From Paenibacillus sp. FSL H7-0331 (GTDB taxonomy: Bacteria > Bacillota > Bacilli > Paenibacillales > NBRC-103111): a stretch of DNA of 64,000 nt. A program made the translations under genes and the position numbers. The notes under the pieces are model-generated. The model saw nothing but the letters and a program-made list of their open reading frames with translations, had not been told where the DNA came from and made no database searches. Positions 11,408 to 26,808 of this stretch are shown here, piece after piece. Position 1 is the first letter of the stretch. Each line of letters starts with the position of its first letter. Location of the stretch: assembly GCF_001956045.1 (NCBI RefSeq), contig NZ_MRTH01000001.1, positions 310,001-374,000 on the forward strand, written 5' to 3'.

Positions 11408-11475
11408 CCGGTTTAATTCCTTTCTAAAGGCTTCCTGAGGGAAGCTCGCTTCATAAACAGCAACTTCGTAACATC

Positions 11476-12961: not shown

Positions 12962-14320
12962 TTACGATTCAGGGTCATTCACGTCATGATCTTCAAGAAA
13001 TTTGATGTCAAAATCCCCGGAAATAAATTTGTGGTGCTCCAGCAGCTTCAAATGAAAAGGGATCGTCGAGTGAATGCCTTCAACCGCAAATTCGGACAAC
13101 GCACGCTTCATGCGCTGAATCGCTTCATCACGGTCTCTCCCCCACACAATCAGCTTGGCAATCATCGAATCATAGTGCGGTGAAATCGTATATCCCGGAT
13201 ATGCAGCGCTGTCTACCCTGACTCCAAACCCTCCAGGTGGCAAATAAAATTGAATTTGTCCAGCGGAAGGCATGAAATTACGAGTGGAATCCTCAGCATT
13301 AATACGGCATTCAATCGCCCAGCCTTCGATTCTAACCTCATCTTGTGTGAAGGATAACGGGTCCCCTTCAGCAATCCGGATCATCTCTTTAATAATATCT
13401 ATACGGGTGATCATCTCTGTTACCGGATGCTCTACCTGAATACGCGTATTCATTTCCATAAAATAAAACTGGCCATCGGCTCCCAAAAGAAATTCTAGTG
13501 TCCCGGCTCCTGAATAATTAACAGCCTTGGCAGCACGAACGGCAGCTTCACCCATCCGTACACGCACTTCTTCAGTCAAAATTGGACAAGGCGCTTCCTC
13601 AACGAGCTTTTGGCGTCTGCGCTGAACCGAGCAATCCCGTTCACCCAAATGGACGACATTGCCATGCTTGTCTGCCAGTATTTGAATTTCGACGTGCTTC
13701 ATTCCTGTCAAATACTTTTCCAGATAAACGCCAGCGTTTCCGAAAGCTTTTTGAGCTTCCTGCTGGGCATTGGTAATCTGACTAATCAGCATCTCTTCAT
13801 CGTCGGCAATACGAATTCCCTTGCCTCCACCGCCTGCTGTTGCTTTAATGATGACCGGATATCCAATTTCCTTGGCGATCCTGACTGCATCATCCAAATC
13901 CTCAACAAGACCGTCAGAGCCAGGAATAATCGGAACATCCGCCTGCTTCATCGTAAGCTTGGCTACTGCTTTATCACCCATTCGATTGATCGCATCTGGC
14001 GAGGGACCGATAAAGGTAATGTTACAGCTCTCACAAATCTCGGCAAAATCGGCGTTTTCAGCCAAAAATCCATAACCCGGATGAATCGCATCGGTTTCAG
14101 TCAAGGTTGCTACACTCATAATATTGGTCAGATTCAGATAACTGTCCTTGGATAAAGTGGGGCCGATGCAATAAGCCTCGTCTGCGAGCCGGACATGCAG
14201 CGATTCACGATCCGCTTCCGAATATACGGCAACTGTGGATATACCCAACTCATGACAAGCGCGAATAATCCGTACGGCAATTTCGCCGCGGTTGGCAATT
14301 AAAATTTTTTGAAACTTCAT
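12962..14320 (-). CDS. accC: Acetyl-CoA carboxylase biotin carboxylase subunit
   Basis: AccC carboxylates the biotin on AccB with ATP and bicarbonate, the first half-reaction of malonyl-CoA synthesis. The 452-residue protein has the N-terminal fold ([22 protein letters not shown]), the Gly-rich ATP lid ([12 protein letters not shown]) and the active-site blocks [17 protein letters not shown] and [16 protein letters not shown] segments. The ATG at 14320 has an AGGAGGAG site that forms the 3' edge of a double-hairpin element filling the accB-accC gap. It follows accB on one transcript. Confidence 0.97.
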
Positions 14321-14326
14321 TCCGAT

Positions 14327-14412
14327 CTCCTCCTACAAGTTTTCCGAAGGAAAACTGACTTCATATGCGTAACCTTAAGTTTTCCGAAGAAAACTGACTT
14401 CGCACTTCGTTA
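14327..14412 (-). repeat. Tandem hairpin-Shine-Dalgarno intercistronic element, copy 1 (accB/accC)
   Basis: Reading the minus strand from the accB stop codon (14410-14412), two units of about 40 bases follow each other. Each has a TTACG/TAACG start, then GAAGTCAG, then a palindromic stem: AGTTTTC-TTCG-GAAAACT (14378-14395) and AGTTTTC-CTTCG-GAAAACT (14338-14356). The second unit runs into the AGGAGG that serves accC. The same architecture recurs at 19343-19418 and 25972-26058. The distal unit has a UUCG tetraloop closed by C-G, which is exceptionally stable in RNA. Confidence 0.8.
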
Positions 14413-19342: not shown

Positions 19343-19418
19343 CCTCCTAAAAGTTTTTGCGCCAGCAAAAACTGGCTTCGTAAGCTTTACTGAGTTTTCG
19401 TAGAAAACCTGACGTCTA
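19343..19418 (-). repeat. Tandem hairpin-Shine-Dalgarno intercistronic element, copy 2 (spoIIIAG/spoIIIAH)
   Basis: On the minus strand the element runs from the spoIIIAG stop (19416-19418) to the GGAGG of spoIIIAH. The first unit has a GTTTTC-GTA-GAAAAC type stem (19394-19408). The second has TTACGAAGCCAG followed by the stem AGTTTTTGC with GCAAAAACT (19352-19373). Compared with copy 1 the stem bases differ on both sides and pairing is kept. The first unit is the more degenerate, lacking a clear TTACGAAG start. Confidence 0.75.
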
Positions 19419-25140: not shown

Positions 25141-25974
25141 ATGGAAGCAACGACACAGGTAAAATGGCATCCACTGCTCAGCGATCCGTCAGGTAAACGG
25201 ACTGACAAACCAAGAATGCTCGGTAAAACCATGGTGATCGATAAAGGCCTGGGAATTCATGCGCTTGACGATTTGCTGCAAACGGCGGGTTCTTATGTCG
25301 ATATGCTCAAAATCGGATTTGGCACATCACCGCTGTATGAAACGGACATATTGAAGCGCAAAATCGAGATGGCCAAAAAGCACAATATTATCGTGTACCC
25401 TGGTGGTACGTTTTTGGAGGTTGCTATTCAGCAGGACGCGGTAGATGAGTTTTTCGATATGATCTCGATTATGGGCTTTAACGGTGTTGAAATTTCCGAT
25501 GGCACGATTGAGCTGGACAGGAATCTGCGCAGTCAGCTTATTACTCGCGCTGCAGAGGAAGGGTTCACAGTGATTACCGAATACGGCAAAAAACTGTGGG
25601 GCTCCTCTATCGAAATTGATGCATTGATTGAAACGGTTACTATAGATGCTGAGCTGGGTGCCAGCCTGATTACGATCGAGGGTCGGGAGTCAGGTAAAGG
25701 CGTCGGCATTTATGATGAGCATGGTGAGTGTAAGGAGCAGGACATCGTCAAGGTGCTGGAACGTGTGCCTTCCAAGCATCTGCTGCTGTGGGAAGCTCCT
25801 CAGAAGGAGCAGCAGGTCCATCTATTAAATCTTCTTGGAAGCGATATTCATTTGGGCAATGTAGCCCCACAGGATTTGATTTCTCTGGAGGCGCTGCGTA
25901 GAGGATTGCGTTCGGATACGATGCATTTTGGTCTGGAGGCACCTTGTGCCTACGTCGGAGATTGGGTTATATAA
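25141..25974 (+). CDS. comA: Phosphosulfolactate synthase ComA
   Basis: ComA adds sulfite to phosphoenolpyruvate to give (2R)-phospho-3-sulfolactate. In Bacillus the pathway (YitD/YitC) makes the sulfolactate stored in spores. The 277-residue protein is a TIM barrel with the family blocks GKTMVIDKGLGI, VDMLKIGFGTSPLY, VYPGGTFLEVA and FNGVEISDGTIEL. The ATG at 25141 follows GCGAGGCGA. It is divergent from yqhV-spoIIIA and 93 bases from comB across a double-hairpin element. Sporulation-specific expression is expected from function and position, but I did not find a convincing promoter in the 205-base divergent gap to the predicted yqhV start. Confidence 0.93.
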   Translation: MEATTQVKWHPLLSDPSGKRTDKPRMLGKTMVIDKGLGIHALDDLLQTAGSYVDMLKIGFGTSPLYETDILKRKIEMAKKHNIIVYPGGTFLEVAIQQDAVDEFFDMISIMGFNGVEISDGTIELDRNLRSQLITRAAEEGFTVITEYGKKLWGSSIEIDALIETVTIDAELGASLITIEGRESGKGVGIYDEHGECKEQDIVKVLERVPSKHLLLWEAPQKEQQVHLLNLLGSDIHLGNVAPQDLISLEALRRGLRSDTMHFGLEAPCAYVGDWVI

Positions 25975-26058
25975 GGAAGCTTACGAGGTCAGTTTTGCTT
26001 AGGCAAAACCGTAGTATCGCTTACGAAGCCAGTTTTGCTTAAGCAAAACTTTAGGAGG
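25972..26058 (+). repeat. Tandem hairpin-Shine-Dalgarno intercistronic element, copy 3 (comA/comB)
   Basis: From the comA stop codon (25972-25974) two units run to the AGGAGG of comB. Unit 1 is GCTTACGAGGTCAG followed by AGTTTTGC-TTAG-GCAAAACC (25991-26010). Unit 2 is GCTTACGAAGCCAG followed by AGTTTTGC-TTAA-GCAAAACT (26031-26050), then TTAGGAGG. This copy is the most regular of the three and lies on the opposite strand, in the same orientation relative to translation. Confidence 0.82.
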
Positions 26059-26067
26059 ATAGCATCA

Positions 26068-26808
26068 ATGGATATTACCGTCATTCCCAGTGTCAACGAG
26101 GCGCGTTCGGATGACCTAGTGAACAAAACCGTTATTGTCATTGATGTGCTGCGAGCTACCAGTACCATGCTGACAGCCTTGGCTCATGGGTGCGATGCAA
26201 TTTATCCGGTCGAAACGGTTCTGCAAGCCAAGCACCTTCTATTAGAACAACAGGACTGGCTAACCGGTGGGGAACGCTACTGTAAAAAAATCCCGGGTTT
26301 TGATCTTGGCAACTCCCCATTTGAGTATATGGATGACAAAGTTGCTGGTAAAACGATTATTCTTACGACCGCCAACGGTACACGTGCTATCCAGAAAGCT
26401 AACAGATCCGGTACCGTACTTATCGCTTCACTGCTTAACGGCAGAGCCTGCGCCATAGAAGCGGCAGCCTTAAATAAAGATATCGTCATCTTGTGCTCGG
26501 GTACGCAAGACATATTTGCATTCGAGGACGGCATCTGTGCGGGTCAACTTATCGAGGAATTACAAGGACTGTCAGGGCAAGGCAAGCCTGTGAATGTTGA
26601 TGATCTGGGCTTATGTCAGCTGCACGCATTCCGGCAAGTACAATCCGCCATGACAGAAGCTTTGTTAAAAAGCAGTAACGGTAAACGGCTGGATAAGCTT
26701 GGTTTCCGCGAGGATGTCATCTACTGCTCACGAATGAATCTCATCCCTCTCGTCCCTATCATGCAGGGTGGGCGTTTGACCTTATTGCCGGTTAAACAGC
26801 TGCATTAA
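26068..26808 (+). CDS. comB: 2-phosphosulfolactate phosphatase ComB
   Basis: ComB dephosphorylates phosphosulfolactate to sulfolactate. The 246-residue protein has the family segments VIDVLRATSTMLTALAHG (about 23-40), TGGERYCKKIPGFDLGNSP and IILTTANGTRAI. The ATG at 26068 follows AGGAGG by 9 bases; the longer frame from 26035 would start in the hairpin element. It is paired with comA, completing the two-step route from phosphoenolpyruvate and sulfite to sulfolactate. No comC-type dehydrogenase is present, which fits sulfolactate rather than coenzyme M as end product. Confidence 0.93.
   Translation: MDITVIPSVNEARSDDLVNKTVIVIDVLRATSTMLTALAHGCDAIYPVETVLQAKHLLLEQQDWLTGGERYCKKIPGFDLGNSPFEYMDDKVAGKTIILTTANGTRAIQKANRSGTVLIASLLNGRACAIEAAALNKDIVILCSGTQDIFAFEDGICAGQLIEELQGLSGQGKPVNVDDLGLCQLHAFRQVQSAMTEALLKSSNGKRLDKLGFREDVIYCSRMNLIPLVPIMQGGRLTLLPVKQLH

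Follow-up and report, generated by a model that had tools for sequence, protein, structure and literature searches.

ERIC and Correia repeats are longer, MITE-like inverted repeats that give rise to cleavage sites for RNase E or RNase III where they lie in transcribed regions, and we know of no tie between them and ribosome-binding sites (RBSs) or 5S rRNA genes. Together with BOX and REP/RAYT, they are the nearest kinds of element to the one described here, a 40-base RNA hairpin repeat of Paenibacillus relatives that is apparently without earlier description and likewise lies in transcribed regions. The source that describes BOX of Streptococcus pneumoniae as a composite A-B-C element, judged parasitic by its authors, also names ERIC and Correia and finds BOX, RUP and SPRITE over-represented between convergent genes (PMC3049150). 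With BOX, the present element shares the character of a dispersed intergenic repeat that folds as RNA, a tandem module of variable copy number (boxB in BOX) and, if our reading holds, an effect on downstream genes (PMC3049150). Unlike BOX, it abuts an RBS or a 5S rRNA gene in one orientation and occupies old orthologous sites, and it appears to be built from a single 40-nt unit, the arrays that we read consisting of one unit type. A short conserved tag beside a hairpin and a high copy number are shared with REP/BIME and RAYT (PMC3733652), whereas the tag here is TGCTTACGAAG and the orientation is gene-sense. PF01797, the Y1 transposase family of RAYT, had no match in four of the six genomes tested (G012, G011, G182 and G026), and REP/RAYT mobility is not supported on that result; G001 and G091 carry 6 and 15 matches, respectively.

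In Bacillus subtilis, RNase Y sites favour G|A, with U preferred at positions -2 and -3, and a hairpin behind the cut blocks RNase J1 from the product and does not direct the cut; according to the same source, the consensus of RNase Y sites is weak, and cutting can do without the downstream hairpin (PMC11780869). The B. subtilis cggR-gapA and glnR-glnA sites have in common with our element an intergenic cut just 5' of a protecting hairpin, known there and proposed here (PMC11780869), but those are individual sites, whereas here a many-copy sequence family is concerned. In a Firmicute, the intergenic stem-loops of cip-cel mRNA are cut signals and stabilizers that set operon stoichiometry (PMC10311766). 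Unlike the present case, that system comprises one operon and two structural stem-loop types, and the excerpted text names no shared dispersed motif (PMC10311766).

We rate the unit among the dispersed RNA-folding repeats, its lock on place being unusual for them. Open-licence literature searches returned no description of it, and a transcriptome study that lists Rfam motifs and an aGGaGg RBS for P. riograndensis mentions no such element in the part of the article available (PMC5670726). The anatomy, position, pairing, distribution and turnover of the units, set out below, were established by sequence comparison.

Unit anatomy and pairing

The window, that is, the whole stretch of 64,000 nucleotides analysed, holds five units matched by our covariance model R1 and two poorer ones, of which one is degenerate and the other, before nusB, is decayed. 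From 5' to 3', a unit is built as T-GCTTACGAAG-T-N, a hairpin of 7–10 bp with a loop of 3–4 nt in most cases, and 2–3 bases, after which the RBS follows. The conserved 5' motif, TGCTTACGAAG, is unpaired, and the hairpin sequence drifts while its pairing stays. The shared tail is about CTTAG, and the remainder comes from the downstream gene. Forty-three units of mixed length were aligned with MAFFT; the right arm was misaligned, and the left columns were kept for motif counts, in which G8 and A9 are invariant (43/43) and C7 and A6 occur in at least 90%. The pre-stem consensus across these 43 units is TGCTTACGAAGTC, and a GTAG- or CGTC-type REP tag (PMC3733652) is absent from their hairpin foot.

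Because of the misaligned right arm, R1 was built on 15 equal-length units, 13 from G001, the nearest genome compared, and two from the window (25978 and 26018), which therefore match it by construction. The model favours AGTTTTGC-type stems and scored at most 150 candidates per genome (at most 22 in the run on 296 genomes), and its match counts are rough, some hairpin-only mirror matches being included. Arrays and loci were read with a heuristic unit finder made for this analysis.

The layout given in the preliminary description was recovered at all three of its places in the window (accB/accC, 19343–19418 and 25972–26058). Between accB and accC, on the minus strand, unit 1 (14370..14404; R1 22.2 bits) has a degenerate motif part (GTGCGAAGTCAG) and a 7-bp hairpin with a UUCG-type loop, a loop type previously taken as characteristic that is right for this gap, the loops elsewhere being variable. 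The terminal unit 2 (14330..14369; 34.8 bits) has an 8-bp hairpin and continues into the AGGAGG of accC (14329..14334), which we read as the gene's own RBS, ahead of the start ATG at 14320–14318 of the accC open frame (12962–14320; TIGR00514). In the spoIIIAG/spoIIIAH array, also on the minus strand, the first unit (approximately 19387..19418) is degenerate, with its hairpin retained and the GCTTACG motif gone, and is not an R1 match; the terminal unit (19344..19386; 40.7 bits) has a 9-bp hairpin and leads to the AGGAGG (19343..19348) and start ATG (19335–19333) of the gene 3' of spoIIIAG. The comA/comB array lies on the plus strand and consists of the two training units, unit 1 at 25978..26016 (44.2 bits) and the terminal unit 2 at 26018..26058 (59.1 bits), whose match spans the AGGAGG at 26053–26058, with the start ATG at 26068. 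The decayed unit before nusB (11420..11459, minus strand) is a weak R1 match (13.6 bits, E 0.06) with a GCTTCC/GGAAGC stem. Among the neighbouring genes, accB, accC, spoIIIAG, ComA (phosphosulfolactate synthase) and NusB are named from NCBIfam; the ComB-type phosphatase matched NCBIfam below its models' own cut-offs, and the gene after spoIIIAG, with no NCBIfam match, is named spoIIIAH here by position. Rfam 15 gave no match at or above a family gathering cut-off over the window.

When terminal units were picked by the motif GCTTACGA-N-G plus AGGAGG, with pairing not required, 168 were obtained, 51 of them 42 nt long and 47 of these distinct. In the 47 distinct 42-mers, whose motif and RBS columns are fixed by selection and many of whose loci were fetched by the structure-aware model or by a TTTT...AAAACT pattern, 96.5% of cells are paired and both-side changes occur in six of eight pairs; each of five measures was reached by 0 of 500 shuffles, and pairing fell to 31–56% when the partner column was displaced by one, two or three positions. 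Among a later 49 such 42-mers, nine come solely from pattern-fetched loci and 19 were seen in loci fetched by neither route. Alignments A3 and A4, which contain hairpin-only mirror matches, were left out of the covariation analysis.

Two further tests avoid this selection caveat. The 11-base motif alone, compared with its reversed form, occurs at 38 vs 13 places in G011, 120 vs 8 in G009 and 43 vs 7 in G006, and 21 of 30 sampled motif-only sites from these genomes are accompanied by a perfect stem 6 bp or more in length, as against 190 of 1500 shuffles. About four of the nine sites without a perfect stem are hairpin-less, some of them probably chance motif matches, and the others are imperfect or truncated. 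The atpG site, fetched by protein, gave 11 distinct rows, some trimmed by one base for equal length and with identical copies and two loci of other stem or loop lengths (L446, L455) dropped, in which 99 of 99 cells are paired and double changes occur in three of nine pairs. Cells paired, cells with a double change and the covariation score were each reached by 0 of 500 shuffles, while the count of double-change pairs (211/500) and the pair types (500/500) are not above shuffles. The earlier observation that stem bases change while pairing is kept thus extends to compensatory changes in the 42-mers and at atpG.

Placement at gene starts and at 5S rRNA genes

Placement was analysed in G012, a single contig with 113 R1 matches at E 0.01. 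Five of these were mirror matches to the hairpin alone and one covered just model positions 7–41; without these six, 107 full-length matches remained, in 77 arrays, 58 of a single unit and the others of two to five. In 59 of the 77, the stem is followed immediately, in gene orientation, by an RBS core and by a start codon whose frame stays open for 50 codons or more, compared with 0/77 when the mirror orientation was put to the same test and 459 of 20000 random positions. These counts support what had been noted for the window, namely that units point one way with respect to the gene and stop at its RBS. In 55 of the 59 arrays, 2–3 nt separate the nominal end of the stem from the RBS. Arrays track gene direction even where that direction is the rarer one in its chromosome half (for example L163, L170, L180, L181 and L202). 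Six of the 77 adjoin a 5S rRNA gene. The leftover 12 were read by eye: L198 precedes rpmJ, which at 37 codons is too short for the frame threshold; sequence resembling an RBS also follows L365, L171 and the second L167 match; L205, L218 and the first L167 match belong to the inside of longer arrays; L370 and L215 stand roughly 15–20 nt 5' of an RBS; and L168, L201 and L204 have no recognisable gene start ahead. Upstream, on the same strand, an open frame that spans 80 codons or more from stop to stop (a putative gene at most) ends within 60 nt in 27 of the 59 arrays and within 150 nt in 40, and by these counts both intercistronic and leader positions seem to occur.

Units at 5S rRNA genes were first seen at three G012 loci, in which a unit is followed by an Rfam-confirmed 5S gene. 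In this genome, a unit ends at the first 5S base in 8 of 11 5S genes, with three kinds of hairpin among the eight; three genes lack a unit, one of them with sequence masked from 26 bases upstream. Among 30 5S loci from 20 genomes, an abutting unit was found in three (G009, G012 and G001) and a mid-spacer unit in one (G026), and no unit was seen in the others, although several of these lie at the end of a contig and offer little sequence 5' of the gene. By coordinates, R1 matches in G026 abut three of seven 5S genes and two are mid-spacer, and four motif sites in G011 lie 36 nt before 5S genes, among its 12 (two of these sites were read). The rrn copies of G001 also differ, L248 having a unit and L228 none. 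Given that most 5S loci are without a unit and that presence varies among the rrn copies of one genome, the unit is not essential at 5S; since 5S rRNA is untranslated, translation is ruled out as its role there.

Two side observations concern the spacers. The G026 loci L371 and L372 have units in spacer sequence like that of the 5S locus L237, with no 5S match nearby, and the spacer of L371 continues into tRNA-like sequence. In 23S-5S spacers of several genomes (L161, L176 and others), a recurrent varied insert around GGATATTTTCTCGCAGCGATTTCGAAGAAGTAACGCTTCGAAAA looks like a separate, second spacer element.

The AGGAGG had been regarded as a Shine-Dalgarno sequence built into the unit, a view that the wider comparison does not support. 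Units before atpG lead into AAGGTGG or GAGGTGG, and the same AAGGTGG is found in unit-less loci (L460, L461 and L464 of family f8, L454 of f1 and L450 of f10). Because the atpG RBS is also present in unit-less genomes and 5S has no RBS, AGGAGG is not part of the element.

Distribution, orthologous sites and turnover

A strict pattern of the unit occurs at 37 places in G001, an assembly listed with 10% contamination, and its reversed form at none, and the repeat family is therefore not a product of chance. Of 40 genomes comprising G001 and its relatives, 24 had R1 matches at E 0.001. Within the nearest genus, the number of matches is roughly 36–147 in 12 of the 13 genomes, and the thirteenth, the 4.4-Mb G008, has three. 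Across the order, 219 of 296 genomes, from 26 of 48 genera, were matched at 1e-5, many of these genomes just once or twice. A scan for terminal units gave 99 stretches, and every one of the 80 listed was titled Paenibacillus. In family f10, the motif and RBS position recur, and part of the matches are about 22–30 nt longer because of a long apical part. Seven such units (L336, L342, L346, L356, L051, L338 and L354) give matches of 62–70 nt with base and RBS position unchanged, and the long variable apical part holds additional CGAAGT-like stretches. At L462, 5' of atpG in G017, a genome with no R1 matches, a GCTTACGATG motif and a long-apex hairpin stand before AGGTGG; genomes without an R1 match may thus harbour diverged copies. 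The multi-copy family of the preliminary description is real, with many arrays per genome in place of its three copies, and the outcomes that it named as fatal, no further copies or copies in both orientations and inside genes without conserved pairing, did not appear in the genome searches.

Several sites recur between genomes. At rpmJ (58 genomes matched), 30 loci were read and 21 have a terminal unit, some with a diverged motif; these 21 belong to families f1, f2 and f10, and the rpmJ loci read from f4, f6 and f7 have no unit. A motif-less hairpin precedes the rpmJ RBS in the f9 locus L408, and another, with a long apex (GTTTTGCCC...GGGCAAAAC), ends just 5' of the RBS in the f6 locus L413 of G042; in the f1 locus L424, the last unit has the motif and no hairpin. 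At atpG (60 genomes matched), 17 of 30 loci read have a terminal unit, all in f10, with CTTACGA in 16 of the 17. In the accB-accC gap, a hairpin lies directly 5' of the RBS in 11 of 13 genomes of the genus (by eye, some motifs and stems being imperfect); in G009 (L268), an intact unit is followed by a hairpin-less remnant, with GCTTGCGAAG directly joined to TTAGGAGG, and G008 has a decayed unit alone.

Other gaps vary. Before comB, there are two units in the window and one each in G001 and G013, whereas G008 retains a remnant and G009 and G007 have no unit, in agreement with the expectation that related species would lack some copies. The spoIIIAH gap has two units in the window and four in G001, G009 has units, and the other three genomes have none intact; before nusB, units are clear in G007, G008, G013 and G012 (L173) and decayed in the window, G001 and G009. 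Tandem number, a variable trait in BOX, is variable here too, with one to five R1 units per array in G012 and up to 11 in G091; the two units per array reported from the window were thus too few. The longest array read, L376 of G091, has eleven nearly identical tandem units before one gene. Hairpin identity over 38 arrays is 0.923 within arrays and 0.698 between them, 55 of the 146 within-array pairs coming from the 11-unit array; when that array is omitted (37 arrays), identity is 0.876 within vs 0.684 between, and 40% vs less than 1% are identical. Array-mates thus resemble each other more than units of different arrays do, and, taken together, sites last while their units are replaced and multiplied locally. 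In G025 and G091, several R1 matches of equal score stand at separate places (scores alone compared).

Candidate functions

What RBSs and 5S genes share, as the two places that the unit adjoins, is that a functional RNA has its 5' end there, and processing with stabilization is therefore favoured. The unit looks like a general cut-and-protect or translation-setting signal. We tentatively prefer, with some doubt, to see in it a cis-acting RNA module that serves the 5' end of the RNA directly downstream, probably by endonucleolytic cutting and hairpin protection; a reader, a cut, protection and dose control are what we infer. A trans-acting factor, most likely an endoribonuclease, with RNase Y as the obvious candidate, would read UGCUUACGAAG and cut in or near the motif (ACG-AAG). 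The hairpin would then form the new 5' end and shield the downstream RNA from 5' exonuclease, the RBS being left free. Additional units may act as more cut sites or protection, so that copy number could set gene dose in an operon. Judged from the motif, the fit to RNase Y is partial: the G|A context with a downstream hairpin is present (G8/A9 in 43/43 units), and the preferred U at -2 and -3 is not, C7 and A6 being found in at least 90%. A loose RNase Y site would also not require so sharply conserved a motif, a hint that something else may read it. Against processing we count the mid-spacer units in G026, the three G012 arrays without a gene start (L168, L201 and L204) and the absence of a unit from most of the 30 5S loci read.

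The main rival to processing is control of translation by a dedicated RNA-binding protein. Such a protein, or the 30S subunit, would read UGCUUACGAAG and the hairpin by the RBS and raise or lower initiation, with tandem units tuning the effect and no cutting. The fixed distance between stem and RBS (2–3 nt in 55/59 G012 arrays, with the stem end three bases 5' of AGGAGG in aligned units) fits this account, as does the sharp conservation of the unpaired motif across several families, including CTTACGA in 16/17 atpG terminal units. Units adjoining untranslated 5S rRNA in several genomes argue against it. The genes downstream of the 20 arrays scanned out of the 59 in G012 are functionally mixed, with no obvious regulon, and predicted RBS accessibility over the 59 arrays was 0.438 vs 0.404 for shuffled arrays (p 0.15) and vs 0.378 with arrays omitted (p 0.007). 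We regard translation control as possible, if somewhat unlikely. Insulation of the RBS by the hairpin was rejected because the predicted gain in accessibility over shuffled arrays lacked significance. Pairing between the motif and rRNA was likewise rejected, exact complements of at least nine bases being found solely at the units' own places (rrn stretches L357 and L161), and an upstream open reading frame starting at ATGCTTACG was dropped because the base before GCTTACG is also C, A or G.

The preliminary description had left the choice between a mobile repeat and an RNA element. A non-autonomous mobile or self-duplicating DNA repeat, spreading between genes, tolerated just where its hairpin does no harm ahead of an RBS or 5S gene and affecting expression as a by-product, as argued for BOX, would agree with the comB gap (two units in the window, one in G001, none in G009 or G007), with 5S units in just 8 of 11 G012 rrn copies, with the equal-score matches at separate places in G025 and G091, and with tandem homogenization, which persists (0.876 vs 0.684) when the 11-unit array is omitted. 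It is at odds with the lock of orientation and place to the RBS (mirror control 0/77), with orthologous recurrence at rpmJ and atpG and compensatory change at atpG, with the lack of a Y1 transposase match in four of six unit-bearing genomes, and with phage and plasmid collections that held no near-full match to one 42-nt unit. Carriage by phages or plasmids was itself rejected, as this unit had no plasmid match and its sole phage match was 20 nt long (E 0.2, a Streptococcus phage). Local duplication and loss of units are plain, but a purely selfish repeat is insufficient because it leaves the orientation lock and the old orthologous sites unexplained, and we consider it distinctly unlikely. 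Recurrence at rpmJ and atpG favours a cis RNA element, and gain and loss at comB, spoIIIAH and 5S indicate that copies come and go. As weak intrinsic terminators or attenuators between genes, the units would offer a hairpin and then a short U-containing tail; yet the tail has few U before the RBS begins, the stems are mostly A+U-rich, no terminator-like match (a G+C-containing stem plus a U run) was found at the three window arrays, and 59 of 77 G012 arrays lie directly 5' of a gene start, making this very improbable.

A bolder reading, which we think fairly unlikely, is an order-wide RNA punctuation, in which one motif-and-hairpin code, recognized by one dedicated factor, would mark the starts of functional RNAs (operon genes and 5S) and tandem number would be an evolvable dose dial. 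As a small, modular and tandem-expandable unit, the element can be tested directly and could be a useful genetic part, and whatever reads UGCUUACGAAG presents a well-defined object of search. The family also offers a natural experiment in how a regulatory RNA motif multiplies within a genome. If processing occurs as proposed, much of a bacterial order would define 5' ends post-transcriptionally by a portable, repeated RNA tag, which would help to explain how unrelated genes of an operon reach separate expression levels.
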